Of a stretch of DNA of 64,000 bases, positions 20,056 to 41,202 are shown piece by piece. The notes below the pieces were generated by a model. The model was not told the DNA's origin, did not search any database, and was given only the letters and a program-made list of their open reading frames with translations. This DNA comes from Pseudomonas hygromyciniae (lineage in GTDB: Bacteria > Pseudomonadota > Gammaproteobacteria > Pseudomonadales > Pseudomonadaceae): positions 5,206,501-5,270,500 of the forward strand of contig NZ_CP070506.1 of the NCBI RefSeq assembly GCF_016925675.1, in the 5' to 3' direction. Made by a program: the position numbers and the translations under genes. Position 1 is the first letter of the stretch. Each line of letters starts with the position of its first letter.

Positions 20056-22513
20056 TTGAATGTGAACCTGAAAATAGTATTGGCAAGTTGCATCCTGTTA
20101 TTACCGGTTTGCTTCACCTACGCGGCTGAAGAATTCCAATTCAACTCGGACGTGTTGAGCCTTGAAGACAGTCTGAACATTGACCTGAGCGTGTTTTCCA
20201 AGGGCAGTTTTATAATGCCAGGCACTTACAGCCTTGCAGTCCACGTCAACAAACATCAACTTCCGAACAGGCGATAGTATTCACTGCCCCGGATGACGCA
20301 CCGCAAGACAGTGCTGCCTGCATTTCGCCTGCATTGGTCGAGCAATTTGGCCTCAAGAACAGCGCCAAAGACCAGTTACGCTGGTGGCATGACAACCAGT
20401 GCATGGACCTCCGGAGCCTTGAAGGCACCGAGATGCGCATTGACCTGAGTACCTCGACGCTCTACCTGAATATCCCCAGGCTTGGCTCGAATACAGTTCA
20501 CCCGACTGGGACCCTCCCTCCCGCTGGGACGAAGGCGTCTCCGGGCCGTTGTTCGATTACGACGTCAACGGCCAAAGTAACGCTATAAAAGTCAGCGCAG
20601 CGACTCGCTGGGCCTCACTGGCACCCTGGGCGCGAACGCCTGGCGGATTCGCGCCGACATGCAGGGGCGTACCGAACGCAGTACCGGGCAGGCGACACAG
20701 CGCGCCTTCACCTGGAACCGCTATTACGCTTACCGCGCCATCGCCCCGTTGCGTTCACGCCCGACCGTGGGTGAGGACTACCTGAGCTCGAGCCTGTTCG
20801 ACAGCTTCAGCTACGCCGGTGTCAATCGCCTCAGACGACAATATGCTGCCGCCCAACCTGCGTGGTTATGCCCCGGAAGTCACCGGGGTCGCGAACAACA
20901 ACGCACGGGTCACCGTCAGCCAGCAAGGCCGTCTGCTTTATGAAACCCGGGTAGCCGCTGGCCCTTCCGCATCCAGGACATCAACAACGCCGTCAACGGC
21001 AAACTGGATGTGCGGATCGAGGAACTTGATGGCAGCGTTCAGGAGTACCAGATGGACACGGCCAACATTCCATACCTGACACGCCCCGGCAGCGTGCGCT
21101 ACAAGTTGACCGCCGGCCGCCCTTCGGATGCTGAGCACAACATCGACGGGCCGCTATTTGCCGCCGGTGAGTTCTCCTGGGGGTCAGCAATGGCTGGTCA
21201 TTGTACGGTGGTGGCATCGGCTCCCAGGGCTACAACTCCCTGGCACTGGGCGCTGGGCGCGACTTGAGTGCACTCGGGGCCATTTCTGTGGACGTTACCC
21301 AATCCAACGCAACGCTGCCCCAAGGCAGTTTCAGCGGCAAGTCCTACCGTGTGAGCTACTCCAAGCGTTTCGATGAATATGACAGCCAAATTACCTTTGC
21401 CGGTTATCGCTTCTCCCAGGAGAACTTTATGAGCATGAGGAGTTCCTTCAGTCGCGCGATCAAAAGAGCGTATAACAAAGCCAAGGAAATGTACACCGTC
21501 ACCCTCAATAAACAGTTTCGCGATCTGGGCGTGACGGTATACGCAAACTACAGCCATCAAACCTACTGGGACGCCCCCGCCGCCAACCGCCAAAGCGTTT
21601 CGCCTGCGCGGTATTTCGATGTCGGGCGTTTCAAAACCTGAACCTGTCATTGACCGCGTACAACAACCAATCCGGCACCACCTCTGATCGCGGCGGCTAC
21701 CTCTCACTATCATTACCTTTGGGTGATGGTTCGTTCAACCACAGCACGTCGATGAACAGCACCAATACTACCCACAACGCCAGCTATTCCAGCCGCGTCA
21801 ATGACAAGACTAACTACCAGATCGGCGCTGGTTCCTCGCGCACGGGACAATCAGTCAATGGCTTTCAACCATGAGGGCGACAGCACGCGGCTTACCGCCA
21901 ACGCCAGCTACCAGCCTGGAGAATACAGCGCCATCGGCGGCTCGCCTCAAGGCGGCGCAACACTGATTGCCCACGGCGGCGCCCTGCACCGCTCAAACAT
22001 CAATGGCGGCACCTGCCTGCTGCTCGACACCGACGGTGTCAGCGACGTGCCAGTCAGAGGCCGGGGCCCAACCACCCGTACCAACTACTTTGGCAAAGCG
22101 GTGGTCAGCGACATCAGCCCTTACTATCGCGACGAGGCGAGCATCGATCTGGACAAGCTGGGAGACAACGTCGAGGCCACCCGTTCGATAACCCAGGCCA
22201 CCCTGACCGAGGGCGCAATTGGCTATCGCAAGTTCGAGGTGATTTCCGGTAGCAAGGCCATGGCGTTTATCACCCTGCCCCATGGGCCCACCCGCCATTC
22301 CGTGCGACGGTGCATAACCTGCGCGGGCAGGAAACCGGCATCGTAATGGATGCAGGCGGCGTTTACCTCACGGGCATCAAGGCCAACGAGGTGATGACTG
22401 TGCGCTGGGACAGCAAGGATCAATGCAACGTGAAATTACCGGAAACACTGCCATCGGACGGCGTCGAGCTAGAACTACTGTGTCGCGAAGACCTGACCCT
22501 GAAAGCCGCTTAA
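20056..22513 (+). pseudogene. Fimbrial outer-membrane usher (FimD/PapC family), frameshifted
   Basis: The reconstructed span of about 819 codons matches usher length. A signal peptide (MNVNLKIVLASCILLLPVCFTYA) leads into the N-terminal domain (EFQFNSDVLSLEDSLNIDLSVFSKG). The plug/barrel part follows (RADMQGRTERSTGQ, SSSLFDSFSYAGV, LYGGGIGSQGYNSLALGAGRDLSALGAISVDVTQ, YRVSYSKRF). The C-terminal domain is GQETGIVMDAGGVYLTGIKAN. At least eight frame changes (for example near 20270, 20570, 20830, 20960, 21190, 21630, 21840 and 22300) break it. Ushers export and polymerise pilin-chaperone complexes. Confidence 0.8.
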
Positions 22514-22549: not shown

Positions 22550-23244
22550 ATGAATACCTCTACAGTAAAAACTTAAGCGCCGCACTGCTGGTCTGCACTC
22601 GGTACAACACAGGCCCACGCCGCCATCGCGCTGGACCGTACCCGCGTGATCTACAGCGCCGCTGATAAATCCGTAAGCCTGAGTATCACCAATCAAAACA
22701 CCAAACTTCCCTACCTGGCCCAGGGCTGGCTTGAAGATGAAGCGGGCAAAAAATCACCTCACCGCTGATCGTTCTGCCTCCCATCCAGCGCCTGGAGCCG
22801 GGTGCCAGTAGCCAAGAGAAAATTCAGGGACTGCCTGCGGCCTCGACCTTGCCCCAGGATCAGGAAAGCCTCTTCTACTTCAACCTGCGGGAAATCCCAC
22901 CGCGCAGTGATAAAGCCAATACTCTGCAAATCGCTCTGCAAACTCGGATCAAACTGTTCTACCGCCCGAAGCCATAAGGTCCCAACAAGGCGGCACCGAT
23001 GTTCCGTCCCAGAACAGATCACCCTTACCCTCCAGGGCGACCGCTATATGGTGAATAACCTGACGCCTTACTACGTGACCCTGGTAGATGCTCAAAGCGC
23101 CCCAAAAGCGAATCTGCCAAAGGGTTTGAGCCCTTTATGGTCGCCCCCAAGGCCAAGGGCGTTCTGAGCGTAGACGCCAAGGCGCTTGGCCAGGCACCAA
23201 TACTCACCTACATCAACGATTTCGGCGCTCGCCCGCAATTGTAA
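22550..23244 (+). pseudogene. Periplasmic fimbrial chaperone (PapD/FimC family), frameshifted
   Basis: About 230 codons. After a signal region comes the PapD-type start IALDRTRVIYSAADKSVSLSITNQN. LPYLAQGWLEDE is the conserved strand region. FYFNLREIPPRSDKANTLQIALQTRIKLFYRPKA is the family signature (NxREIPP, RxKLFYRP). The second Ig domain (LTLQGDRYMVNNLTPYYVTL) follows. Frame breaks fall near 22575, 22750, 22980 and 23110. Such proteins cap pilin subunits in the periplasm before delivery to the usher. Confidence 0.8.
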
Positions 23245-25193: not shown

Positions 25194-25704
25194 CTATTTA
25201 ATATCAAATATCAGCGTACCACTTGCCTTAAAGGTGCCTCCTGCCACATTTTCATTAAGCTTAATCGGATAAGCCCAAATACTAGGTAAGAACGCTAGAT
25301 CTTTAACAAGAAAAGGGCTATTAACCTCCAACACCCTGCCACCTTGATCTTTTAACAGAATTCCCAGACCAGCATTATTGGTACTCAAAGCTTGAGCATT
25401 ACCAACCGCTGGGGTACCTTGAAAAATCAGATTAACCGTAAACTTCGAAGCGTCTTGGGTATTTGTACACTTCGGATCATACCACACCCGAACCTGATCG
25501 TAATTACCACCGGCCGTGGTTAACTTTGCGATATCAAGATCACCGAACTCAACAATTACATCGGACGTGCTCAGCGTACACTTAGGCGCCGAAATTAACG
25601 TCCCGGAAAACTGCATATCCACCGCACCAGCAGATTGCGCCCCCTACGAGCAATGCAAGCAAGCTTAATCGAGCATACTTTAAAAGCACATTTCTTTTGC
25701 ACAT
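25194..25704 (-). pseudogene. Fimbrial subunit-like protein, one frameshift in the signal peptide
   Basis: The mature part reads intact for 142 residues: MDMQFSGTLISAPKCTL (pilin strand with first Cys), VWYDPKCTNTQ (second Cys), GLGILLKDQGGRVLEVNSPF and the C-terminal FKASGTLIFDIK. An upstream signal peptide (MCKRNVLLKYARLSLLALL) starts at the ATG 25702-25704 after a GAGGT site but joins in another frame near 25645. It is preceded on the same strand by a similar gene and by the A1/B1 pair. Confidence 0.7.
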
Positions 25705-25799: not shown

Positions 25800-26314
25800 T
25801 TACATATACGCAACCACCATGACTGCCCTGACCAGAAAAAACTTACTAGGCAGACTGCATCCAGTGCTTTGACAGGCACTACCTCCACGGCAGGCAAACT
25901 AAGGTAGTTCACATTGAACCATTGATTAACTGAGATCGGAGAGCCGTCGACTGTCAACGCCAACCCCAGACCTGGTACAGTAGTCTGCAGCGCGCCGGGG
26001 TAAAATCGGATTCTTGGCCCATAATCTGAAGCTTGACAGTGTTGCCTGGTATATTTTTACAAGAAATAGAAAACGGCACCTGCTCCTTATAATTTTTACC
26101 GTCAATCTTTGCGACATCAATCCTGCCCGTCGCACCGCCAATGAGTACGGAAATTATATAGTCACCGTTCAGCACACAACTTGGTGCGGCGCGAATAGTG
26201 CCTGAAATATTCACTACTGTAGCGGCAAACCGAACCGGCAGCCAACAGCCAGCCTATAAACAACAGGTAAACAAACGACCTTTTGTATGGCAGGCCTCTA
26301 AATAGGCTCCACAT
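25800..26314 (-). pseudogene. Fimbrial subunit-like protein, frameshifted
   Basis: The ATG at 26312-26314 follows GAGGGG. The signal peptide MWSLFRGLPYKRSFVYLLFI breaks near 26240 into the pilin core NISGTIRAAPSCVLNGD. The second Cys lies in PFSISCKNIPGNTVKLQIMG. After a break near 25995 it continues as TTVPGLGLALTVDGSPISVN. The layout matches the neighbouring pilin, suggesting a duplicated pair. It begins only 20 bp after the B1 stop, so the pilins and A1/B1 probably share a transcript. Confidence 0.65.
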
Positions 26315-26333: not shown

Positions 26334-27250
26334 TCAGCTCTCTGGCCGGCAGGTTGCGGGTCGCCCCAAGTTCACCGTTTCATTAAAACTTTTGACGATG
26401 GCGCTGAACCGGTCTTTGGCACTTTGAGCTGCTTCAGATTGTCATTCAGCTCTTGCCCTCTGCGATCTAGTTCACTTCACGCTTCTGCAACTGCGCCAAC
26501 CGCGTACGCAACAGGGTCGAGAGTTCATCTGTGCGGGTATTTTCTTGTTGTAACAGCTCCGCACGGCGGGCACTGGCGCGCTCACGGGCTTCAAGACTTT
26601 CCGCCAGTTGTTGCAGGGTGGCACTGCGTTCGGCAATCACTTGGGCGTTGCTTTCAGCCTCTTGCTCCAACAGGTTGCGATCGTGCAAGAGCTGCTTGTG
26701 CAGTTGGCGCAAGTCTTCCTTTTTCACTCAACAACTGCTTTTCCTGCAGCGAGGTCGCGGCCATGCAGCACTTTCTGTTGTTTGAAGGTGTCTTTCTTCT
26801 GCTCGGCCAGCCGATTGGCCATGCTGCTCAGTGAACCCAAGGTGTCTTGCACATCTTGGAGCAGGTATTCCGTGTCATGGCTGACATTGCTGGCAATCAG
26901 CCGCTCGAAATCGTCCTGGCTTGACGAAAGGGCGATCCCGGCTCGATATCGCTTGGCTCCGTTTCGGCACCGCAGCAGCCTCGACCAGCGCAGGCGGTGA
27001 AACCTCGTTCCGGCACTTCGCTATCGCCAGAGTCATCCAACGCCTGCGGCAGGCTCTGTTGCAAATCAGCCACCGCCGCAGTTTTTGTTAGCAAGCCGAA
27101 GGGATGCACGGCTTGGCTGGTAATCGCACTCATCAGTTGGGTTTTGTCCATTCCCAACGATTGATGAGCATCGACGGAACCGGGGAAAAACGACTGATCT
27201 TCCAGGTTAATCAAGTGATATGTCGTACGCTCGGTTTTAGTCGAATTCAT
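26334..27250 (-). pseudogene. B1: coiled-coil protein of unknown function, frameshifted
   Basis: Not a family I recognise. The N terminus is TTYHLINLEDQSFFPG and onward. A Glu/Gln/Arg-rich coiled coil covers LHKQLLHDRNLLEQEAESNAQV to LLRTRLAQLQKREVN. The C terminus has RFSAIVKSF-like residues. B2 at 32138-32908 has the same plan, including FSGIVKS near its end, so the two are paralogues. The start ATG overlaps the A1 stop (ATGA). Frame breaks fall near 26960, 26860, 26725 and 26440. It may be a structural or docking component of the adjacent export system (inference). Confidence 0.5.
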
Positions 27251-27512
27251 GGTGATTCAGTCCTCACTATCTGTTTGAGTGCCTGCAGCGCAAACACATG
27301 ATCCCGGTCAGTTTCCAGTGCGCCCAGGCTGTAGGTCTCGCCTTGTTTATAGAGTGCTGCCAGATACACCCGAATACGCCCAGCGCGGACTCCTCATTAA
27401 ATGTATAAACCAGAAAGTTCTTAATGATTAATGGCACCGCGAAACCAAACAACAGAACCGCATTGATCACGTCACCGCTTGAGTCGGCGAAAGTAATACT
27501 TCGAAAACGCAT
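27247..27512 (-). pseudogene. A1: small protein of unknown function, frameshifted
   Basis: About 88 codons. MRFRSITFADSS is followed by INAVLLFGFAVPLIIKNFLVYTFNEE. In another frame come LAALYKQGETYSLGALETDRDHVFALQALKQIV and a stop that overlaps the B1 start. The NAVLLxxFAVP, [FY]L[AV]Y[ST][LF]NE and AAL motifs recur in A2 (32909-33153). Function unknown. Confidence 0.45.
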
Positions 27513-27775
27513 GTTTGATGACTCCAAGACAACAAGACGGACAGTTCATTGCCACTCCCTTTAACTTTACACCTGCACGCCAGTCCAATAATCCAGGACA
27601 CGACCGGAGTTGCTGAGACCATTCTTGGATATTGAGCGTCTTTTCTGGCCTGAAAATAATGTCTATTAAAACGGTTATTCTTTTATGGATAGAAACTTCT
27701 GTATCACGTCTATTTGCAGCCCTCCCACCAAGGTTGTGGCAGCGACCCTTTTACCCGGAGATAACTATTTGCGCC

Positions 27776-28684
27776 ATGATCGAGGCTAACCAACTGACCC
27801 GGCATCTGGTGGGGAGAACAGTGGTCGACAACCCGTCTTTCCAGGTTAAGCAGGGCGAGGTGCTGGGCTCGCTCGGCCCCAATGGGGCGAAACCACGACA
27901 CTGAAAATGCTCGCCAGCTTTCTGCCGCCCACCCATGGCAGCGCCAGCATCCTGGGCGTGACATCACCACCCAGCGACGCGAGGCCCAGCAATTGATTGG
28001 CTACCTACCAGAAAACTCGCCCTTTTATGGCGAGATGACAGTGCGGGGTTTCTCGAATTTATCGCCGCTGTGCGCAATTACCGAGGTGCGCAAAAACGCA
28101 GCCGGATTGCTCGGGCCATTGAGCGCTTTGATTTGAGGCGGGCCGATGGCCCATCGAAACCTGTCCAAGGGATTTAAACGTCGGTGGGTCTGGTCAAGCG
28201 ATGCTTCACGAACCCAGCGTATTGATCCTCGATGAACCCACCGATGGCCTCGACCCTCATCAGCAGCAACGGATACTCGAGATGATTAAAGACTTGGCTC
28301 AGGACAAACGGGTGATCATCTCGACCCATCAACTCAAGGATGCACAGGCGCTCTGCACCCATGTATTGCTTATCAAGGCAGGACGCTCGTGGCCAGTTGC
28401 ACGCCACTGGAGCTGGCCAGCCACTCTCGACTGCACAATGCCGTCCATCTGGCGCCTATGCAGGCGGTCGACCCTGGCGTTAGTCATGCTGCCGGGGTGG
28501 CCGGCATCGAGAGAACCAGTAACACCCTCGACGCAGTGACTGTGCTGGCAAAACCGGGCCCGGTGATTTTGCCGCTGATCCGTCGCCTCGTCGCCGAGCG
28601 CCAATGGCCGGTTGAACGCCTGAAGCAGAGCCCGACTGTTTTGAATCGGTGTACCGCCAACCGATGAGCGAGGCACCTCAATGA
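27776..28684 (+). pseudogene. ABC transporter ATPase, GldA-like, frameshifted
   Basis: The start MIEANQLTRHLVGRTVVDN and SLGPNGA then KTTTLKML form the P-loop, but about 4 nt are missing inside Walker A, so the invariant Gly before Lys is lost and the frame shifts. GYLPENSPFYGEMTV is the Q-loop region. LSKGFKRRVGL is the ABC signature across another break. VLILDEPTDGLDP is Walker B and IISTHQL the switch His. About 302 codons. Its stop overlaps the permease start. With the next three genes it forms a GldA/F/G-like export ATPase set. Confidence 0.75.
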
Positions 28685-29409
28685 AACTGTTGGTGATCGT
28701 GTGGCGCGAGCTGGCAAGTTACTCGAAAGCCCCACTGACCTACGTGTTCCTCATGGCCTTTGTCGCGCTGTCGGGCATCCTGACCTTCTATCCAGGGGAT
28801 TTCTACGCGCGCAACCAGGCTGATCTTATGCCGTTCTTCAACATCCAGCCCTGGCTCTATCTGTTTCTGCTGTCGGCCCTGGCCATGCGCCTGTGGGCAC
28901 AAGAACGCCAGAACGGTTTCATCGAGCTGCTGATGACCCTGCCGCTGGGTGACTTCGCCAGAGTCACCGGCAAATTCATCGCCGCCTGGATCATTGCCGG
29001 CCTAGCGTTGGCGCTGACCTTCCCCTAGTACTCACCGTCAACTATCTAGGCTCGCCAGATAACCTGGCGATCCCGTCGGCTACCTGGGCAGTTGGTTGCT
29101 GGCGGGGGCTTATCTGGCCATCGGCTCATGCATGTCGGCGCTGGCCAAGCAACAGATGGTCGCCTTCGTACTGACCTTGCTGGTGTGCCTGCTATTTATG
29201 GGCAGTGGCTTGGCCCCTGTGCGTGACACGCTGCTGCACTGGGCACCGATGTGGCTGGTGGATGGAGTAGCGGGGTTGAGTTTGCTGGAGCGTTATCAAG
29301 CCATCAGCAAGGGGCTGGTTGACGCCGGCGATGTGCTCTATTTCATCAGCTTGATCGTGGCTTGGTTGTCCGCGACGCGGTCGTCATCGACCCGAACAAA
29401 GCCCAGTGA
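28681..29409 (+). pseudogene. ABC-2 type permease, GldF-like, frameshifted
   Basis: About 242 codons with six hydrophobic segments (LTYVFLMAFVALSGILTF, PWLYLFLLSALAMRLWA, FIAAWIIAGLALALTF, LLAGAYLAIGSCMSAL, MVAFVLTLLVCLLFMGS and a last one). The motif RLWAQERQNGFIELLMTLPL is typical of GldF/ABC-2 permeases. Frame breaks fall near 29027, 29075 and 29370. ATGA overlap with the ATPase gene indicates coupled translation. Confidence 0.75.
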
Positions 29410-29418
29410 GGTTCCCGC

Positions 29419-31211
29419 ATGAAACGCCTGTTGTTCTCCGGGCTGGGCCTGGTACTGATCGCTGTGTCTTTTTGGCCTTCAATAGCCTGACCAGCCTGGT
29501 CCTGCGCGAGGCTCGACTCGACCTCACCGAGCATCAGCTCTACACCATCAGCCCTGGCACCCGGCAACTGCTCGCCAATCTGAAGGAGCCGATCAATCTG
29601 TCTCTGTATTTTTCCGACAGCCAGGCCCAGGAGCTACCGCCGCTGCGCAATTACGCCAAACGCATTGATGCATTGCTGCGCAGTTACGAGCGTGAAGCCT
29701 CCGGCAAACTGAAATTACAGGTCATCGACCCTGCGCCTTTTCTACGAGCGAAGAGCAGGCGGCACGCTCTTCGGGTTGCAGGGTGTACGCTGCAACAGGG
29801 AGGCGCACTGCTCTATCTGGGGCTGGCGGCGACCAATACCCTGGTGACACCCAAATCATTTCACTGTTTTCACCCAGTGAGGAGCGCTTGCTGGAGTACG
29901 ACATCAGCCGCCTGCTTCACGCCCTGAACACGCCACAACGACCGATCATCGGCGTGATGTCGACCCTGCCTGTCGGTGGCGATGCGGACAAACCGCCGTG
30001 GGCACTGTTTGAGGAAACCTCTCGCCAGTTTGAGGTGCGCTACCTCAAACCAGGCCACGCTGATACCCGCCGACCTGTCGGTATTGATGCTGGTGCATCC
30101 CAGGAGCTGGACGAGGTGACCTCTATGCCATCGACCAGTTCGTGCTCGGTGGCGGCAAGTTGCTGGTGTTTGTCGACCCTCCCAGCCAGGTCGACAACGA
30201 CGCCCAAGGTCACAACAACTTCGACCTACCAAGACTGTTCAACGCCTGGGGCATGCAATTACTGGCGGGTAAAGTGGTCGCCGACCAGCGTTACGCAATG
30301 ACTGCCCCAGGCGCCGGGCAACGCCCACAGCGCCAGATGACCTGGCTGAATCTACCACCCGAATCCCTCAATGCCGATGATCGAGCACCACTGACCCGCA
30401 ACGTATGACCCTGGCCAGTGCTGGCGTCCTTCAGCCCTCCCCCAACGCCAGCACGATCTTTGTGCCACCGATCCAAAGCTCCACATCGGCCGTGCTGTTT
30501 GACGCCGAGAGTTTTGGGCTGCTCGATGAGCTGGGCGATCAACTGCGTCAGCTTAAACCTGAAGGCCAGCGCTATAGCCTCGCCGCACGTATCTATGGCC
30601 CTGCCCACACCGCGTTCCCCAAGGCATTACCGGCAAGAAAACGGCCTCAAAGAGGCGGCCAATATTAACGTCATTGCGGTGGCCGATACCGATTTGCTCA
30701 CCGACCGACTTTGGCTACAAGAACAGCAACGCTCGGGACATTCACTGCTGCGCCCATGGGCCGATAACGATGCATTTGTCATCAACTCCTTGGATTATCT
30801 GAGCGGATCCGAAGCCCTGGTCAGCCTACGCGCGCGAGGCCGCTTCAGCCGCCTGTTCAGCGTGGTGGACGAGTTGCAACGCCAGGCCCAGATTCGCTTC
30901 CAGAGCACTTACCGCCAGCTCTCACAGAGCCTCGCCGAGACCGATCGGGCCTCAAAAGCTGCGCAGCAATCCTGATCCTCACGCGGCGCAGCTGCCGGCT
31001 GAACAGATCGATGAATTGGCTCAGCGCGAACGCCAATAACACCAACTGCGTGAGCAACTGCGCAGCCTTCAATATCAGTTGAACAACGACGTCGATGCCC
31101 TGGGTCGAACCGAAGTGGCTCAACATCGGCCTGGTCCTGCTGCTGCTCACCTTGCTGGCGCTGTTGATCATGGCGATTCGGCGCCTGCGTTCCGGAAAAG
31201 GAGACCAGGCC
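29419..31211 (+). pseudogene. GldG-like ABC-associated membrane protein, frameshifted
   Basis: The N-terminal membrane helix (MKRLLFSGLGLVLIAV) leads into DLTEHQLYTISPGTRQLLANLKEPINLSLYFS, the typical GldG/Gldg_ABC substrate-binding-like domain. LEYDISRLLHALNTPQRPIIGVMSTLPVGGD and QFVLGGGKLLVFVDPPS continue it. The C terminus returns to a membrane helix (NIGLVLLLLTLLALLIMAI). About 600 codons with many breaks (near 29470, 29740, 29790, 30050, 30110, 30405, 30620, 30970 and 31100). The end coordinate is approximate because the final frame runs into the next gene. Confidence 0.7.
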
Positions 31212-32141
31212 ATGCGTGGAATCACCCTGTTGGGTTTGACCGTTACCTGCGCGGTACTAATAGGCGCCTCGGTCAACTGGGCCCCGAAACCAAAAATCGA
31301 ACCTATGGTCGAGTCGCTGTGGTTGCCGGAACTGGATATCAGCCAGGTCAACGCCCTGACCCCGAGCCGCCGCAATCAGCCAGATATCCGTGTCGAGCGC
31401 CGCGACGGATTATGGGTAGTTACCTCTGGTAGATTTCCCTGCTGCGCCCGGCGGCATCGTCATCCCGCGGGCGCTGACCACCGTACGCAAGGTCGAAGCC
31501 CAAAGTCCCCAGCCACAAAATCGTGCTGCCCTTGGCCTGGACGAGCAGGCCATACGCCTGACACTCGAACGCCAGGAGCAGACCCCGCTCACGCTATTAC
31601 TTGGCAAACAGGTCCGCCAAGGCGGCGGGTGAGCCAGCCTGATAGTGAGGTGACCTGGCTACTCAATGAAAATCTGCCGCTGCCGCAAAGCCCTTTGGCG
31701 TGGATCGACCGACGCCTGACGCGGATTCCCTTTGAACACATACGCCAGCTATCGCTGACCTACCCCAACGGCGCGCGACTGAGAATCCTCCGCGAGTCAT
31801 CTGACGCAACGAGCTTGAAACTGCGCCAATACCCCAGCACGCCAAAGGTCGCGGATGAGGCCAAGGCCACTAGCCTGCTGCGATTGTTTGGCCAACTCAA
31901 CATTGCCGACATTGCGATCGAGGCCGATGAGCAGCAGATGGCAAAGCCGGACTTGAGCTTTGAGCTACTGACCTTCTCAGGCGGAAAACTCGCCGGCCAG
32001 ATCCGCCAACGCGATAACCAATACTGGCTGAAACTGAAGACTATAGAGGGCTTTGATACGGAGTCTGTTCAGCCACGAATGGGCTGGGTCATGCGGGTGG
32101 ATGCATTGCTGCCTCGACCTGGTGCAACCCCGAGTCCTTAG
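31212..32141 (+). pseudogene. DUF4340-domain protein of the Gld-like ABC operon, frameshifted
   Basis: The ATG at 31212 follows AAAAGGAGA. The N-terminal hydrophobic MRGITLLGLTVTCAVLIGA is an anchor. VERRDGLWVVTS and the later LSLTYPNGARLRILR, LLRLFGQLNIADIAIEAD and LKTIEGFDT repeats are typical of DUF4340 proteins found next to GldG. The middle segment lies in another frame (PGGIVIPRALTTVRKVEAQ), showing two compensating indels near 31430 and 31630. The predicted periplasmic role in the exporter is unknown. Confidence 0.7.
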
Positions 32142-32908
32142 GAATGGCTTGCCGGCGTCAGGCGATCGAAGGGGGGCGATCTAAATGAAAGATTGCCCCC
32201 GCAGCACTGGGTCAAAGCAGGCACTCTGAGCCGTGCTTTCAGTCGGTTGGTGGTTACGCTGCAAGCGCCTTCAAGTGTTGAGGCCAGTGCCTTTAAGTTG
32301 TACAGCCGCATTAAACTTTTGACGATACCGCTGAATCTCGCCCGGTTAGCCAACAGCTTCTGCTGACCCAATGCCAATTCCTCACTGCGGACTTTGAGCG
32401 CCGCTTCACGCTCATTCAACAGTTGCAAACGGGTTTGCAGGCTAGCCGCTCGAGCCTCTGCGTCCCGTAGGGCCGCGTAACGCTTGCCAGATCTTTCACC
32501 TTGCTGTTGAGCTCGCGCTCCTTTTCCAGCATTTGGCTTTGACGCTCTTCCAGTTGCCGGTGTTGTTGGGTCGAGGCTGTGGCGCTGTTCCAGTTCCTGG
32601 GCCAGCGCCACAAGGCTGCTCAAGCTTTCCTGAACCTCATCTAGCTCTTCCTCCTGCCCATCCAGCTGCTCCGCGGGCTGCGACGTCTCTTGCACTGCGT
32701 CTGCCGCTTCGTTCACAGTTTCGTTGCGGTATGTGCTCGCAACAGGGGCATACTCAATCGCCTGGCCCACCTCCACTGCATCCGGCCGCAGGAGCAAGCC
32801 CATGACCAAGGCTTTATTGAGCTTGACGCTGGCGTGCTCTTCGCAAAGGGCCACGGGGAGAGGTTGTTGCCCGATGTCGATGTAGTGCCACCTAGCGTCT
32901 TGAGCCAT
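32138..32908 (-). pseudogene. B2: coiled-coil protein, paralogue of B1
   Basis: The start MAQDARWHYIDIGQQPLPVAL parallels B1. A long coiled coil (QLDGQEEELDEVQESLSSLV, AALRDAEARAASLQTRLQLLNEREAALKVRSEELALGQQKLLANRARF) ends with FSGIVKSLM as in B1. At least two indels disturb the middle (near 32560 and 32480). The end overlaps the convergent DUF4340 gene by 4 bp. A2 and B2 read as one open frame here, which probably reflects an indel. Confidence 0.5.
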
Positions 32909-33153
32909 TTGGCCCTGATCGACTATCTGACTGAACGCCTGCTGCCAAGCGTGATCGGCTACCGACATAGCAAGACGATATCGGCCCTGCTCGAACTGGA
33001 GCGCAGCGATGTAAACACGCACATCCTGATCACCAATACTTTCGTTAAGGCTATAGGCCAGGTAGTTCATGCCTGCTGCGGAACGGCGAAGCTGCATAGC
33101 AACACCGCATTGAGGGTCTCTTGTTGGGGCGTACAGACAGCGATGGTTCGCAT
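32909..33153 (-). pseudogene. A2: small protein, paralogue of A1
   Basis: MRTIAVCTPQQETLNAVLLCSFAVPQQA, then after a 1-nt break near 33068 MNYLAYSLNESIGDQDVRVYIAALQFEQGRYRLA and WQQAFSQIVDQG. NAVLLxxFAVP and the YSLNE/YTFNE and AAL motifs align with A1. The start could be one of three adjacent Met codons, or further upstream (to 33333). Function unknown. The repeated A-B order at both sides of the ABC operon suggests a functional module. Confidence 0.45.
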
Positions 33154-33697
33154 CATCATTTCAGTGCTTGCTCGGTGCTGCACATCTGCCTGGTTATCTC
33201 GCTCAACCAGAGTCACAGCGCGGGAGGACAGCGGCGGGCCTGCCACAGCCCCGGCACGAGGGGCTGTTCGTTGCTGCTTGACATAACGCCGGATGACCCC
33301 AGGCGCTTCCAGCCAAAGTAGCTCTTCATACACGTCTTTTGCCCCAAAAACCTTAAATAGCAGCCACTGCTACTCACCCCACCACTGCGCACGCCATCGT
33401 CGATAGCCAGTACTGGTCGAGGCATAACGCTTCAGGTCTAGCCATGAGACAGGGTGTTTGAGTTCAAGCATTGCCGCGTTCATAAATAGCGCCGAACTCT
33501 AGCAAACAAACCATCAAGAATTTTCTTGAGTAAGCTCCCTCTTGCTCACTGCGGTCGCGAGCGACAAGTTTAAGACTGCGGACGTCAAAACCTATCTTCC
33601 ACGATCGAGATATGGCTCGCACCAGGCCCAAGTCGCCAAGCAACTGGACACCTTCGCCTGCACGCACCATCAGCGCGAAGAAGAATAGGCCCAGACG
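33154..33697. other. Unassigned region with gene fragments
   Basis: Minus-strand fragments (for example ELKHPVSWLDLKRYASTSTGYRRW and GLVRAISRSWKIGFDVRSLKL) read in several frames and probably come from one or two broken genes upstream of A2. I do not recognise them. The variant palindrome at 33515-33528 lies inside. Confidence 0.3.
33515..33528. promoter_or_regulatory. Near-palindrome CAAGAATTTTCTTG, variant of the island operator
   Basis: Differs in one central base from the exact 14-mers at 19128 and 34133. It lies 180-360 bp upstream of A2, depending on its start, on the side expected for control of A2/B2. Confidence 0.45.
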
Positions 33698-34146: not shown

Positions 34147-34352
34147 AATTATCATAGAGACGTCCCAAGAAAGCCGGGCATCTGAAAAATTCATCTACTA
34201 TGTATGCAAGCCTTCGCATCGCAGCGCTTATCACACACCATCCAGAGCTGAAACAGACCGCCCCAACGCCGAAGTACTGATTACACAAGTCTGATACGCT
34301 TGCTTGGCGAGTCTGCTGAGACGCCCACTTAGGCCTTTCCTTGAGATCCTCC

Positions 34353-34977
34353 ATGAATAAACGTGTACTCATTGTGGATGACCATCCAATCATCTGTGTT
34401 GCCGCCAAAACCGTCCTTGAAGAGAACGGTTACGAAGCCGTCGCCACCTGTTCAGATGGCTTCGAGGCATTGTCTCTGATCCAGTCCTTGGCCCCGGAAT
34501 ACCTGCTGCTGGATATCGGCATCAATAGCCTGGACGGCTTGTCGCTGTGCAACGTATTGTGGCGGACGAGATTAGATCAAGACATTGGTATTCACCTCAC
34601 ACTTGGCCAGTACCTATGCTGTTCGCTGCATGCAGGCGGGCGCACAAGGTTTTATCAATAAGAACGCCGACCTCAAAGAGTTGATCAAAGGCTTTAACGC
34701 CCTATCGGATGGTTACCTGTACTTCCCGGAAGGAGGTGTTGACGCTGTACCGCGACGCCACCAAGAACAACAACAGCGGAACCTTTGAAACCTGACCAAC
34801 AAAGAAATCATCATTCTTCAGCAATTGGCCAAAGGCTTCAGCAACCAGGAAATTGCCGCAAAACTCAACCTGAGCAACAAGACCATCAGCGGTCATAAAG
34901 TCAACCTCCTGAAGAAGCTCGGCGTGCGTACCTCGATTGAGCTCGCCAGCATCGCCAAAGAGCGTGGCTTGCTCTGA
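34353..34977 (+). pseudogene. NarL/LuxR-family response regulator (BvgA/FimZ/EvgA-like), frameshifted
   Basis: The receiver domain starts MNKRVLIVDDHPIICVAAKTVLEENGYE. The phosphoacceptor Asp lies in YLLLDIGINSLDG and the conserved Lys region in AGAQGFINKNADLKEL. The LuxR-type helix-turn-helix (LTNKEIIILQQLAKGFSNQEIAAKLNLSNKTISGHK) ends the protein. Breaks fall near 34585 and 34740-34795. About 208 codons, the usual size. It is followed after 10 bp by the hybrid kinase. I infer it controls the fimbrial and exporter genes. Confidence 0.8.
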
Positions 34978-34987
34978 GTAATCGAGT

Positions 34988-37900
34988 ATGAAATCTTTTT
35001 CGCCTGTTGTTCTGCACACTGTTCGTAACGATCGTTACCGCCTGCTGCTGATGCCGAACTTGACCCCGACTGTCCGAGCTGACTCGGGTCATCCCCATGT
35101 CACCTGAACTCGATGAGCAGGCAGTTGCCCGGCTTAAGGCGAAAAAAGTGCTGACGGTGGGGTACACCACCCAAGCCATCCGCCCTTCAGCTTTATTGAT
35201 TCCAATCAGCAGTTGCAAGGCATCACGGCCGAGTACCTGAATGGGCTGAAAAAGGCGTTGTCGATAGAGATCAGCGTTCGCTATTTTGCCAGCCGAGCTG
35301 GGGCATTTGCCGCGCTTCGCGAAGGCACCATCGACCTGATAGAGACCAGTACTGAGGCTGAGGTCAAAGTACTCGGCGGCGATGACAGACGCCTACACTT
35401 TTACCCGAATAGGGCTCTATTCCAAGACAGGCACCCTGCTTGATGTCGACCTGAGTAATCCCAAATCAAAGATTTCCAACGTCCAGGGAGGCTTGGTCAA
35501 CGACGCGATCCTGGATACCTTTCGTGGCGCGACGATTGTGAAGTACAACACCCCCTGGAGGCCATTGCCGCAGTAGTGCATGGAGACTCGCAAGCGTATC
35601 TGGCGATACCGTGAGCACCAGTTACCCGGTAAGCGAAAGCTTCAGTAACCTGCTCGTCACCAACGTGACTGCGCAGAACATTGACGAAGCCATAGGCTTT
35701 GCCCTCAGACCCGACGATATTCAACTCAAGACGATCCTCAATCGGGCCTTCAACACCCGTAGCACCTGTCAAAGAATCCAAGCCATAAACTGGTGGGTTG
35801 CCACGATCAAATGCACAGAGGGGGATTTTCAACAGCAATTGAGCCCGGAAGAAAAACAACTACTGCAAAGTAACCACACTTTCCGGATTTCAATCAGTGA
35901 AGACCTGGCACCCTTCGCCTTCTTCGATACCACAGGCCAATTCAGTGGTTCCATGTCCGACATCCTCGAATTGGTGCGATTGGAATCAGGCCTGAAATTC
36001 AAGGTCGTTCGCTCACGCTCTATCGCTACCTCCATCCGTGAACTCGATAACCAAGAGGTGGACCTGAACGTAATGGGGGAAACCGAGACGCGTAAACGTC
36101 AGTACCTGATGAGCAAACCGATTTTCAGCTCCCTTACACCTTGATTACACGCTTAGCCAACACGTCGACTTCGGCCCCGATGCCACCAGTACCATCGCGC
36201 TGCCACAATCGGACGGATTGATTCCCTATTTAAAAGAGCATTACCCGCACAGCAAACTACAACTGACCGACACCTTTGCCGACTCCTGAACAGTGTGTGC
36301 GATGGTGGCGCAGACCTGACCATCGCATCGATCAATCAAGCCCGCTATTTCCTGGCCTATAAGTACGAAGACAGCCTGAAGATCGACGGCATCCTCGCCC
36401 CCTCACGGCCAACTTGAGCATTGCGGCAAATCGGACAAGGCCACGCTGATTTCGATTATCGAAAAAGCGTTGCTGAAAATTTCCCCAGCGAAACAGCGAC
36501 GATAAGCGGCCGCTGGCGAGCCAACACCGCCACCGACGCTCTGTACCGGGAGGGCATCAGCCTGCGTACTTACCAAATGTTGAGCGCCCTGTTTGCACTG
36601 CTATTAGTGACAGGGGTGTGGATCGTATTTCTGCGAAAACTGATATTCAAACGCACCGTCGAACGGAAAGACCTGCAGTCACGACTGAGCCTGATGCAAA
36701 ACATGGTGAACAGCATCCCCCACCCGATTTATCTCAGAGATCGCAAGGGCGCACTGCTGTTGTTTAACACCTCCTACGCCCGGTCATTTGATGCAACGGC
36801 TGACACTGTCATCAACGGCACCGTACTCGACGAGCAGGTTGACCCAGCCATTCTTCAACAGTGGCAAACCCATTACTCTCAGGTGCTGCAAACCGGTACG
36901 GCGATTGCGTTTGACCAGACGCTTCCAACCCAAACGGAAGCATTGATATCTATCACTGGATCGAGCCCTGCGTGATGAAGATGAACACTTCATCGGTGTT
37001 GTCTGCGGCTGGCTGGACATCAGTGATCGTCTACAGATTCTTGAACAACTGCGTCAAGCCAAGGCCTGCGCCGACAACGCGAACAACAGTAAGTCGATTT
37101 TCCTGGCGACCATGAGCCATGAAATCAGAACACCGATGAACGCCATTATTGGCATGCTGGAGCTGGTACTGACACGCGATCAAAACAGCACAAGAAACCT
37201 TAATGCCATTAGCGTTGCCTATAGTGCTGCGCTCAGCTTGCTTGAGTTGTTGGGGAGTATTCTGGATGTCTCTAGTATCGAGTCGGGAGAGACCCGCTTG
37301 ACGCTCGAAGAGACAACGTGGCGGGAAGCAATAGAACCGGTGGTCAACATCTTCCTGGGGCCCGCCAAGCATAAAGCCTGGCCATCCATCTGGATCTGGG
37401 GATTACGCTGACCTAGGCGTGTCCATCGACAAGCTGAAGATCAAACAAGTGTTGTCTAACCTGTTGAGCAACGCGATCAAGTTCACCAGTGCCGGGGCTA
37501 TTAGCGTAAGACTTGAAGGCTGCCTAATGGGTGAGGCCATGCAGTTCAAGCTGAGGGTCCAAGACACCGGCAGCGGAATTAATGACGCCGAAAAAGCCAA
37601 CCTCTTTACCCCTTTTCGCCGCAACACCATCACCCCAAACAGCGGCGCCGGATTGGGCCTATCCATTTGCCAGTCGCTGAGTCAGATCATAGGGGCAACC
37701 TGGCCGTCGAGAGCACTGAAGGCCAAGGCACCTGCGTGACTCTGAGCCTGACAGCCCAACCTTGCGAGCTCAAAACCAGCACGGAGATTCAGGCCCACGC
37801 CGCGGCAGAAGGTTCAACCCCACTCAGAATCTTGGTCGCTGAAGATCATCTACCCAGCCTCCACCTACTTAAAGAACAGCTGGAACTGCTGGGGCACATC

Positions 37901-38538
37901 CCAATCCTGACCCAAAATGGCCTGGAGGCTCTGTTCCAATGGGAAGACACCGAGATCGACCTGCTGATCACAGATTGCAATATGCCTGAGTTGAGTGGGA
38001 TGGCATTGACTCGGGAGATCCGTCACGGGAAATAGCACTGCGCGTGCGGCCCTGCACCATCATCGGGATGACCGCCAGCGCCCGCAAGGAGGAAATCAGT
38101 AAGTGCATGGACGCTGGTATGAATCAGTGCCTAATCAAACCTGTCAGCATCGCGCAACTGACACGCTACGTCCCTGATTTACGGGAGCGCGCTCAACACG
38201 GAAAAACGGTCGTTGAGCAAACCGAATATACGTTTTTGTCCAACCTGCCAGACGCTAAGAGGTTCGACTTAATCCACGAATTGATTGCCACTAACGAAAC
38301 CGATTACCAGGAACTGGAAACAGCGCTGGAAGCAGGAAACTTCAAGAGCATGCAAAACACCCTGCATCGCTTGAAAGGATCGGCGCGAATCATCGGTTCT
38401 GACGATCTCTGGACACAGTGTGAAGCCCTCGAAGCGGCAGTGATGAGTGCCAACGTCAATAGGATCCCACTGATCCAACCTCTGACTGAGCTAAAGAAAC
38501 TGTTGCTTAATATTCATCAAATGCTGTCGAAGCGATAA
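34988..38538 (+). pseudogene. BvgS/EvgS-like hybrid sensor histidine kinase, frameshifted
   Basis: About 1183 codons. Two periplasmic Venus-flytrap (SBP_bac_3) domains come first (KKVLTVGYTTQAIRPF, then HTFRISISEDLAPFAFFDTTGQFSG). Then a membrane helix (MLSALFALLLVTGVWIVFL), a PAS domain (VNSIPHPIYLRDRKGALLL), HisKA with MSHEIRTPMNAIIG, and HATPase_c (LLSNAIKFTSAG, GAGLGLSICQSL). A receiver (LRILVAEDHLPS, Asp in LLITDCNMPELSG) and an HPt domain (LHRLKGSARIIG) complete a four-step phosphorelay. Breaks include those near 35080, 35400, 35560, 36140, 36290, 36410, 36960, 37390, 37690 and 38035. Confidence 0.85.
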
Positions 38539-38568: not shown

Positions 38569-39270
38569 CTAAAAGGTAGCCTTCGAGTTAATCGTGTGCG
38601 TGCGAACGCCGTCGTCATTGACCACGGAAAATTTTACATCCACCCGTCGCACGCCCAATTGGTGGCCAACGAGTAGCCCTGAGTTGACTTGGGCGGCAAC
38701 ATTTGCAGCTTTCCAAGCTCAAAACCTTGTGGTTACTCACCACTTTCAGGCTCGAAAACATCACGTAATAGGCACTGGAGTTAGTGACCTGCAGTCGATG
38801 CTCGCCCGCTTCCTCGACCAGTTGCCAATGCAGTGCGCTCCGGCATCCACGGCTTTGCCAGAGAGGCTCTCGGACGATAAAACAGCTCAATGCGCTCCGT
38901 AGCGGCGACTGTTGAGGGGTTATCACGGTTCTTTTGATCGTGCGAAACTTTCTGCACATTTAGATAAAATACGGACTCGCGATCCTCTGGCAATTTACCG
39001 GGGTTTTCATCACCCGAAGTACTTGCTCTGCTCTGGAAGGCACACTGAATAGTGCTGGCATGACAATAAACGGCGCAATTACTGGACCGTCCGCCTGACG
39101 ATCAGTCACCCATACCCGCACTGCAAAATCCTGCTCACTATCATTGCTAAGCAATAGGGAAGCACTATGCTCCTGGGCATTAAATATTAACCTAGCCACA
39201 CTTAACATTGACCCGCCGTGGCGTTTGGCGCCTGCAAAATACTTATAGAACAAAAAGCCAACACAACCAT
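38569..39270 (-). pseudogene. Second periplasmic fimbrial chaperone (PapD-like), frameshifted
   Basis: About 234 codons. The signal peptide (MVVLAFCSISILQAPNATA) breaks into MLSVARLIFNAQEHSASLLLSNDS. FAVRVWVTDRQADGP and SVFYLNVQKVSHD then RIELFYRPRAS form the chaperone signature. The C-terminal domain is HWQLVEEAGEHRLQVTNSSAYYVMFSSLKV and ends VNDDGVRTHTINSKATF. Breaks fall near 39220, 38995, 38890 and 38680. It lies downstream of the DsbA-like gene on the same strand, but no usher is adjacent. Confidence 0.75.
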
Positions 39271-39415: not shown

Positions 39416-39969
39416 TCACGCCACCACACGAAGATCAAGGCAATGCTTGCCATTGACCACCATCGCTGGTAAAGCACCGACTTCAAACAATTTGGTTTTC
39501 TCCTTAGCCTCTATGACTTTTGCTTGCACCACAGGTGAGTGATAAGTGGCAATGAACAGGTCTTTATCGACGCCGACTGTTGCTAGGAAATCAGCCATCT
39601 CCTCAGCGCTGGTCAATTTCTGACGTTTACGCACCGCTTCAAATACGGCGTGATGCACAGAATAATCAACGGCCATGACTTTCAACGTTAAAAACAACTG
39701 GCCTTGTACATCCCATCGCCCACCGAACATCGCCGGTAGTCGATTAAAATAGACATCGGTCGGCAGCGCCCTGATCCATGGGTCAAGGACTTCCTCCAAA
39801 TTGAAACACTGTCGACAGCCGTAGGAAAAAACTCGATCACTTCGATGGTTTCATGGGGATTAACTGCGACCGCCGACTCCGGCAACTCTTCATGTTGCGA
39901 TGCTGACAGCGGAGTAGAACCCATACTCGCGATGACAATACAGACCAGCCCCATAAACACACGAAACAT
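39416..39969 (-). pseudogene. DsbA-like thiol:disulfide oxidoreductase with CRQC motif, one frameshift
   Basis: Signal peptide MFRVFMGLVCIVIASMGSTPLSA. The thioredoxin fold begins ETIEVIEFF, continues after a 1-nt break near 39815 as SYGCRQCFNLEEVLDPW, and keeps the cis-Pro loop (VGALPAMVVNGKH). The insertion region LPAMFGGRWDVQGQLFLTLK is typical of DsbA. The active site reads Cys-Arg-Gln-Cys rather than Cys-Pro-His-Cys. About 184 codons. Its position beside a fimbrial chaperone suggests it forms disulfides in pilins. Confidence 0.8.
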
Positions 39970-40008: not shown

Positions 40009-41202
40009 TCAGCCTGATCTATCCTCCCCCAATAAAACCTTCATCAATGAAGCAGCGCTCATTGGCGGATGGAAAAAGTAACCTTGGGCAGAGTCGACGC
40101 CTAGCTCCTTTAAATGTAAAAATTGCTGTTCGCTTTCCACGCCCTCCGCAACAAGCTCCATCCCAAGCAACAAGAAAACTTGATAAAAACCGATAATCCG
40201 GGTCTGTTTTTCATCCAGCGCTCAAGCGATAAAGTGGAGTCGAGTTTGATCTGGCTAAAGGGGAGCTGCGTCAGCCGTTCTAGTGAAGAAAAACCGGTAC
40301 CAAAATCATCCAGCGACAGACCGATTCCGCCTTGAATTAACAACGTGATGTTCTCGATCGCGGCTATCTGCAAATCCAGAGCTTGGTTTCGGTGACTTCC
40401 AAGGTCACCAGATTCGGCGAAATACCCGCTTGCTGGATACGTTCACTTACCGCGGAGGCAAACCCCTCCTCCTGTAGCTGGGTTGTTTCTATGTTGTATG
40501 AAAATATCAGCGTCTCGCCCATGAGCAACAATGTCTTGTGTACCTGCATGGCTTGCTCAAGCATGCAGTCGAACACGGCCCCTGTAGGTGAAGCTCATCA
40601 ACCATTGGCAAAGATATACTAGGCGGCAGAAGTCCTTTTTCTGGGTGCCGCCAACGCGCAAGTATCTCGACGCGAGAATGCGCTCGGTTTTCAAACACAA
40701 CTTGGGTGGTAATAAGGCACACTCTGACGCTGCGCTAAAATACCAAGCACCTGCGCCCTGGAAAGCATTGGAGGTGGAGAAACAGGCGATGCAGGTGCCC
40801 GTCCCCGCTCTGGTCTTCTTCGCTTGCGCAGCATTGCCATTGCTACTGCGCGAGAGATTTGTATCGCAGGCAATCCTGCGTAGCGCCCCACACAGGTCTT
40901 TTTACCGCGAGCCGTTAAGCGGTTGATCCCCCATGCCGTATGAGCTTCAAGTTCATCGTTCTCGTAGGTTTCGAAGTGCTCAGTCTGCTCACATAGCCTG
41001 CGAAACAATGAGATTTCTGTGCTAGAGAAAACGAATCACAGATAACCAAGCCAATATCAAGAGCCAATGCATTGGAGGGCTCTCCCCTTGCACGCCCTGA
41101 GATCACTTCGATACGCCCAACTTCTGCGAGCTCTAGAGACTTAACAATATGTTTAACACGAATGGCGCTCGAACAGAAGACAACAACATCCAAAGAGCGC
41201 AT
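40009..41202 (-). pseudogene. REC-EAL protein, c-di-GMP phosphodiesterase type, frameshifted
   Basis: About 398 codons. The N-terminal receiver-like part (MRSLDVVVFCSSAIRVKHIVKSLEL, LVICDSFSL) is followed by an EAL domain. Its signature reads VEILARWRHPEKG. ETLIFSYNIETTQL, LVTLEVTET, the catalytic loop LSLDDFGTGFSSLERL, FSQIKLDS and the C-terminal ELGVDSAQGYFFHPP follow. Breaks fall near 40980, 40700, 40580, 40380 and 40190. Such proteins degrade c-di-GMP. The adhesin gene is divergent from it, which fits control of surface attachment. Confidence 0.75.

Follow-up and report, generated by a model that had tools for sequence, protein, structure and literature searches.

Many Pseudomonas species of the fluorescens group carry a gene set in which a coiled-coil protein, which we call AB, is encoded beside a Gld-type ATP-binding cassette (ABC) operon for an ATPase, an ABC-2 permease and a GldG-like auxiliary subunit. 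A frame-broken copy of these genes lies in the stretch of Pseudomonas hygromyciniae DNA analysed here (the window; 64,000 nucleotides, positions 5,206,501-5,270,500 of a 6.04-Mb contig in a 6.29-Mb genome that is 99.8% complete), and the same genome holds an intact copy, linked to greB, at 2.05 Mb. Positions given below are window positions unless they are called genome positions. AB and the Gld operon very probably form one functional unit, as their sequences and shared arrangement across the genus suggest. The fuller reading, that the window holds a broken copy of a Pseudomonas system in which a cytoplasmic AB works with a Gld-type ABC complex by the mechanism proposed below, is in our judgement about evenly poised between right and wrong.

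Pairing of AB with a Gld-type operon

A scan of named genomes, one per species, with two peptide patterns taken from the AB alignment yielded 65 confirmed AB loci, all in Pseudomonas. In every one of these (65/65), the ATPase, permease and GldG genes adjoin AB divergently; 62 of the loci adjoin greB, and the other three (in P. edaphica, P. paralactis and P. khavaziana) lie in fimbrial clusters. In a sample of 398 Pseudomonas genomes, AB was present in 66 and GldG in 120, and GldG lay within 10 kb of AB at all 73 places where AB occurred (73/73). The co-occurrence on which the original prediction depended was thus borne out, with AB standing beside the operon throughout, and AB without the ABC operon was found in neither sample. 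The prediction had also counted a DUF4340 protein among the co-occurring genes; this was detected in 0/65 AB loci and therefore does not belong to the general system. AB and the operon stay paired at several genomic sites that are unrelated to one another, namely the greB locus, the fimbrial clusters and locus L170. The latter is one of two diverged AB-Gld loci in genome G645 (L170 and L171), of which one is fimbria-linked and the other is not. At one greB-linked locus, the neighbouring GreB, DoxX and FtsX-like proteins were confirmed by Pfam; the ATPase gene of the greB-linked copy in the source genome is L049:9850-10776 (about 2.05 Mb). In Pseudomonas sp. MF4836 (L114/L043), the greB locus encodes a 633-aa AB with a long insertion, and a regulator gene adjoins GldG; this form is possibly intermediate between the greB-linked and fimbria-linked ones.

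Judging from profile searches, AB is Pseudomonas-restricted as far as sampled, because the whole-protein profile matched 8/293 genomes of the order, four of them Pseudomonas and the remaining four (three of another genus of the family, one of another family) through the coil only, and the N-terminal profile matched 1/369 genomes of the class, namely the source genome.

A and B had originally been described as two proteins. Because intact relatives are single open reading frames (ORFs), A and B are one protein, predicted to comprise a small beta-rich N-terminal domain and a long coiled coil, and separate A and B proteins are ruled out; in the second window module, a single frame runs from the end of A through the whole of B. 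As had been predicted, the two modules flank the operon on the opposite, minus strand (about 26334-27512 and 32274-33159), and with the frame changes taken into account both can be aligned to a single family. AB1 (26334..27512, minus strand) is frame-broken, with pieces at 27378-27512, 27250-27372, 27005-27250, 26727-26924, 26470-26721 and 26337-26411. At 27247-27250, the N-terminal part stops and the following start begins within one shared ATGA, and this copy could also be read as two coupled ORFs; the family says one protein. Against the intact AB of Pseudomonas sp. MF4836, tblastn aligned 41 aa of the N-terminal part of AB1 at 49% identity and 45 + 85 aa of its coil at 47-51%. AB2 (32274..33159, minus strand), also frame-broken, was placed by profile search and intact relatives; its intact orthologues (368-401 aa) carry an N-terminal extension, traces of which reach to about 33445 in the window. 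With a profile built from intact AB proteins, the N-terminal domain was recovered in both modules of the window, the matches lying at genome positions 5233884-5234012 (E = 4e-8), 5239570-5239659 (E = 6e-5) and 5239241-5239579 (E = 8e-18), the E-values being for one genome.

Five close relatives of AB2, at 84 to 58% identity, are all single ORFs of 368-401 aa, with the motif RFSxIVKKF at the C-terminus in 5/5. An alignment of 33 AB proteins resolves an N-terminal block with FLVYSL.E, a second block around D.....H, and the coiled coil. In the AlphaFold2 model, a linker of low confidence joins five strands and helices to a helix about 140 residues long with pLDDT mostly >90; the N-terminal domain modelled alone reached a pTM of 0.79. 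Among 120 listed of 356 AB relatives, the named ones are almost all 'hypothetical protein'. When four AB proteins were run against each of Pfam and NCBIfam, every match fell below cut-off, mostly in the coil; a PDB sequence search gave coil matches only, and fold searches gave no clear PDB match, rows such as those for SAS-6 and HIT proteins being at noise level. A DUF1292-like domain, considered at first, was unsupported in Pfam and NCBIfam, and a defence system was set aside, PADLOC returning one weak coil hit for AB and generic ATPase-domain hits for the ATPase.

Frame breaks in the window copy

The predicted operon of ATPase, permease, GldG and DUF4340 genes is present on the plus strand at about 27776-32141 (Pfam, tblastn), with AB1 divergent from it and AB2 convergent. 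The ATPase gene (27776..28676, approximate end) was located by tblastn and by motifs in its broken frames, which show the canonical signature LSKGF, Walker B LILDEPTDGLD and switch ISTH. The frame-broken ABC-2 type permease (28681..29405, approximate end) matches CcmB in Pfam (27.1 bits, above cut-off) and scores below cut-off for ABC2_membrane_4 (24.4 bits); two long pieces share 60-63% identity with the permease of genome G014, and in a tree of the window pieces no well-supported set contains them. The GldG-like gene (29419..31111), frame-broken at at least three places, was recognized by DUF7088 (69.1 bits for one piece, above the Pfam cut-off). The DUF4340 gene (31212..32141) is internally frame-broken and has intact 312-aa orthologues. 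Its broken ORF scores 19.5 bits for PF14238 (cut-off 25) and the intact proteins of G012 and G008 score 57.3 and 66.1 bits; the protein database assigns PF14238 to the window ORF and its intact orthologues alike. A plasmid search with the interval spanning both AB genes gave no match, and the viral contigs searched showed no relative.

Frame translations and tblastn reveal frame changes in all four operon genes and both AB genes, and the fimbrial and regulator genes mapped around them are frame-broken as well. The block of about 18-43 kb holds 2/43 of the window's ORFs of at least 200 aa (overlapping ones counted); positions 18000-43000 are thus a 25-kb block nearly without a long ORF, between normal flanks. 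One explanation, to which we give slightly less than an even chance, is that the window copy is a true pseudogene island that serves no function in this strain, with the work done by the greB-linked copy at 2.05 Mb. Such an island would agree with the breakage of every gene in the interval and of its fimbrial and regulator surroundings, between intact flanks. The breaks themselves, however, have a pattern that suits indels or recent breakage, although this is not proof. Compared with the intact relatives P0122 for AB2 and P0128 (Pseudomonas sp. SDM007_2) for DUF4340, the window genes fall into six and four in-frame segments, respectively. Six of these ten segments are at 98.6-100% identity and four at 86-94%, three of the latter being low partly because the ungapped segment overruns a frame change. 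With overrun ends set aside, AB2 has at least five frame changes and about eight residue differences, and DUF4340 at least two frame changes and two residue differences; a second DUF4340 relative, P0129, is more different (17 mismatches in 315 residues, overruns included).

Because frame changes are nearly as frequent as residue differences, we lean towards an accessory region in which sequencing indels were left uncorrected, or towards breakage that is very recent, over slow decay. Intact proteins nearly identical to AB2 and DUF4340 occur elsewhere, and the breaks may therefore be uncorrected sequencing indels. In the pairs P0125/P0131 and P0126/P0132, too, AB and DUF4340 are probably linked, as we infer because each pair shares the size of its longest contig.

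Selection and ATPase motifs

The four AB-Gld genes at the greB locus are under purifying selection in the pairs tested. Between the source genome's greB-linked copy and seven relatives, ratios of nonsynonymous to synonymous substitution rates (dN/dS), rough for the distant pairs with dS >1, were 0.17-0.23 for AB, 0.12-0.22 for the ATPase, 0.11-0.22 for the permease (3/7 pairs saturated) and 0.16-0.23 for GldG; those of GreB and DoxX were 0.02-0.07. AB and the Gld operon also co-diverge beyond the species signal. For the 59 of 61 greB-linked loci that hold all control genes, distances over the first 170 aa of AB correlated with those of the ATPase, permease and GldG at partial r of 0.63, 0.56 and 0.67 after the signal of the FtsX-like neighbour was removed, and at 0.02 with those of GreB, an equally close neighbour. 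The AB-Gld set diverges at least five times faster than its neighbours (mean distances of 0.24-0.59 versus 0.04-0.05). The starts of AB and the ATPase lie 185-321 bp apart in 59 greB-linked loci, and the ATPase and permease genes overlap by 4 bp in 58.

ATPase motifs were counted in 61 greB-linked loci, L114 of MF4836 being left out as different. A canonical Walker A is present in 35/61, the LSxG signature in 23/61 and the Walker B Asp-Glu in 56/61; the switch His occurs in 0/61 (Arg in 60, Asn in one), all four motifs occur together in 0/61, and the Walker A lysine is kept in 61/61. Loss of the switch His generally abolishes ATP hydrolysis. In the same alignment, the fimbria-linked, AB-less and other-family ATPases keep the switch His, and the L114 ATPase is without it. 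All four catalytic motifs are found in the fimbria-linked ATPases L017, L117, L118 and L119 (L171 and L172 lie outside the alignment).

The system might be a conventional Gld-type exporter of polysaccharide, lipid or peptide, with AB serving as its regulator or substrate adaptor and joint regulation of adhesion traits accounting for the link to fimbriae. GPNGAGKST, LSKGF, DEPTDGLD and ISTH, kept in those four fimbria-linked ATPases and in the AB-less operons of G008, G012, G013 and G014, would suit such an exporter, as would the match of the permease to ABC-2 export families. However, the greB-linked ATPases never hold the four motifs together and have lost the switch His in 61/61, yet their genes are under selection, and inspection by eye of the 10 gene-listed greB-linked loci showed no set of biosynthetic enzymes from GreB to DoxX. 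The original prediction had suggested that the module could export or anchor a surface component; a simple exporter driven by ATP is hard to square with the degenerate ATPases found at the commonest locus, and we regard the exporter as a tentative alternative with clearly less than an even chance. Selection maintains a form whose ATPase is apparently incapable of ATP hydrolysis; the complex is therefore probably more than a pump, and AB with its ABC partners probably makes up a dedicated envelope complex rather than a plain pump.

The greB-locus ATPase could also be active as the partner of another ATPase, a canonical one whose gene lies elsewhere. Some ABC exporters are heterodimers in which one site is degenerate, such as TM287/288 and TAP, and these count for such a pairing, as does the Walker A lysine kept in all 61 ATPases. 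Against it, the gene-listed greB-linked operons each have one ATPase gene, and we consider this arrangement unlikely.

Fimbrial linkage and proposed function

The link to fimbriae noticed in the window recurs in other species, six AB-Gld loci of other genomes adjoining fimbrial genes; it is not a one-off, and it is not universal. In G017, the order is AB, Gld operon, short-chain and aldehyde dehydrogenase genes, pilin, chaperone, usher, regulator, hybrid kinase and EAL protein, and in G645, adhesin-like genes, usher, chaperone and pilin run into the Gld operon beside AB. In P. edaphica, P. paralactis, P. khavaziana and G111, for which the chaperone-usher test covered Fimbrial-domain genes only, Fimbrial-domain adhesin-like genes stand beside AB or GldG. 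Usher, PapD chaperone and Fimbrial-domain pilin are complete in G017 and G645, and the window holds fragments of all three. One P. paralactis cluster contains two AB genes, both on the same side of the operon, unlike the flanking arrangement in the window. For the fimbria-linked forms, a role with fimbriae is somewhat likely. In L117, L118, L119, L172 and L017, the Gld operon is repeatedly accompanied by a short-chain dehydrogenase gene and an aldehyde dehydrogenase gene (domains checked in L117); in the first four of these loci, an AraC-type regulator separates the two.

The G017 kinase (periplasmic SBP_bac_3, PAS, HisKA, HATPase, REC and Hpt) and its REC-GerE regulator make a Roc/BvgAS-type two-component system, and the regulator also accompanies AB-Gld in P. 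edaphica, P. khavaziana and Pseudomonas sp. MF4836. Roc (RocS-RocA-RocR) of the P. aeruginosa Cup fimbriae is described as likewise having a BvgS-like hybrid kinase, a LuxR-type regulator and an EAL neighbour beside chaperone-usher genes (PMC12051241). The main text of that paper contains no words starting with 'ABC', 'gliding' or 'coiled', and relative to that text the AB-Gld module is an addition.

In the window, AB1 had been said to run directly into two pilin-like genes. The gap between the end of AB1 at 26334 and the pilin start at 26314 is 19 bases; of the two genes, both on the minus strand, the second (25194..25622) has a clear Fimbrial domain (PF00419, E = 4e-17), whereas the first (25859..26314), which is broken, matches PF00419 only weakly (15.1 bits, cut-off 25.6). 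On the plus strand lie usher fragments (20474..22459; tblastn with the G645 usher), a fimbrial chaperone fragment (22762..22971; homology), a broken LuxR-type, RocA/BvgA-like response regulator (34341..34971; PF00072) and a broken BvgS/RocS-like hybrid sensor kinase (35159..38526; SBP_bac_3 and PAS, with an Hpt end). On the minus strand are a second, broken fimbrial chaperone (38684..39253; PapD_N in Pfam), a DsbA-like fragment (39416..39799; 24.2 bits, just below the cut-off of 25.6) and EAL-domain protein fragments (40024..40671), of which the piece 40233-40379 scores 40.1 bits for PF00563, above cut-off. The EAL fragments are homologous to the EAL protein adjoining the sensor kinase in G017, and the kinase and regulator fragments align along most of both G017 proteins.

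The closest described plan is that of the gliding-motility complex GldA, GldF and GldG of Flavobacterium (TIGR03522, TIGR03521), with the same ATPase, ABC-2 permease and GldG-like subunit. In NCBIfam, the ATPases match GldA best and the G017 GldG matches GldG best, with scores well short of the equivalog cut-offs: the fimbria-linked G017 ATPase scores 275.3 bits and a greB-linked one 152.8 for TIGR03522 (cut-off 402.6), and the G017 GldG scores 63.2 for TIGR03521 (cut-off 389.85). The GldG-like auxiliary subunit is recognized in three intact proteins by PF09822 (ABC_transp_aux; 165-241 bits) and PF23357 (DUF7088; 56-100 bits). Pseudomonas is not known to glide by Gld machinery, and we know of no Gld counterpart of AB. 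In agreement with the original prediction, which knew of no described function, listings of the open-access literature gave no description of the AB-Gld combination. The cyanobacterial HmpF (NF038350) matched 3/4 AB proteins, in the coil only and at 15.6-20.8 bits (cut-off 200); it is a cytoplasmic coiled-coil protein tied to pili, and AB is likened to it on that score.

Judged by its pieces, the window operon has its nearest relative in the AB-less Gld-type operon of G008, G012, G013 and G014, in which ATPase, permease and GldG are accompanied by canonical motifs and no AB gene was found; DUF4340 is present in G008, G012 and G013 and gave no match in the G014 operon. PA3672-PA3669 of P. aeruginosa is perhaps such an operon; in the open-access literature we found nothing on PA3672 as an ABC transporter. 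Neighbours of the AB-less operon vary, with a PlsB-type acyltransferase in G013 and G030 (another family) and a Crp-like regulator in G012. In the 398 genomes, the AB-linked set and a separate AB-less GldG operon never occurred together and look exclusive between lineages, although at most three candidates per genome were scored and second copies may be missed.

The mechanism that we favour is that of an ATP-gated complex spanning the envelope. In it, AB, which is without hydrophobic segments in its fimbrial type, is predicted to be cytoplasmic and the body of GldG periplasmic, with one hydrophobic segment at each end (terminal only, in two proteins). AB would oligomerise via its coil and dock on the ATPase and permease, coupling the cytoplasm to the GldG side. 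At fimbrial loci with a canonical ATPase, hydrolysis of ATP would power a step on the GldG side that serves fibre deployment, anchoring or an accessory surface product. The greB-locus complex, whose ATPase retains the P-loop lysine but has degraded hydrolysis motifs, would act as an ATP-binding switch or scaffold. We put forward this switch or scaffold tentatively. A more specific proposal, which we think rather doubtful, is that AB and its complex are a novel sort of trans-envelope device, whose Gld-type ABC has in the fluorescens group turned into a non-hydrolysing ATP-binding switch, AB setting the state of the core and GldG reporting to the periplasm to place or release fibres, with the canonical fimbrial clusters as the powered form and the greB copies as a pseudo-ABC derivative.

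Several observations weigh against an AB-Gld complex of this kind. In 54/398 Pseudomonas genomes, a related GldG operon is present without AB (its GldG at 39-41% identity to the greB-linked query; surroundings read in four, G008, G012, G013 and G014), and such a complex can therefore work without AB. In the 10 greB-linked loci that were gene-listed, the stretch from GreB to DoxX contains no fimbrial gene, spacing being similar in the rest, and L170 is also without fimbrial genes; fimbriae are therefore not obligatory. In the greB-type AB, hydropathy exceeds the threshold over two short stretches, which, on the model, we read as domain core and not membrane spans. Neighbourhood and co-divergence, finally, arise also from block co-inheritance. 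That AB and the operon are merely co-inherited neighbours, AB having an unrelated cytoplasmic role, is nevertheless very improbable: neighbourhood alone is no proof of interaction, and the operons without AB speak for it, but the pairing holds at unrelated locations and co-divergence exceeds that with the equally close GreB.

Gld-type ABC complexes are, to our knowledge, widespread and without settled substrate or mechanism. The AB-Gld set offers a compact version with an obligate-looking partner named by no library searched and with a repeated chaperone-usher link. Its ATPases form a natural series from canonical to degenerate, nevertheless kept by selection, and the question of pump or switch for Gld-type complexes is directly testable in AB-Gld.

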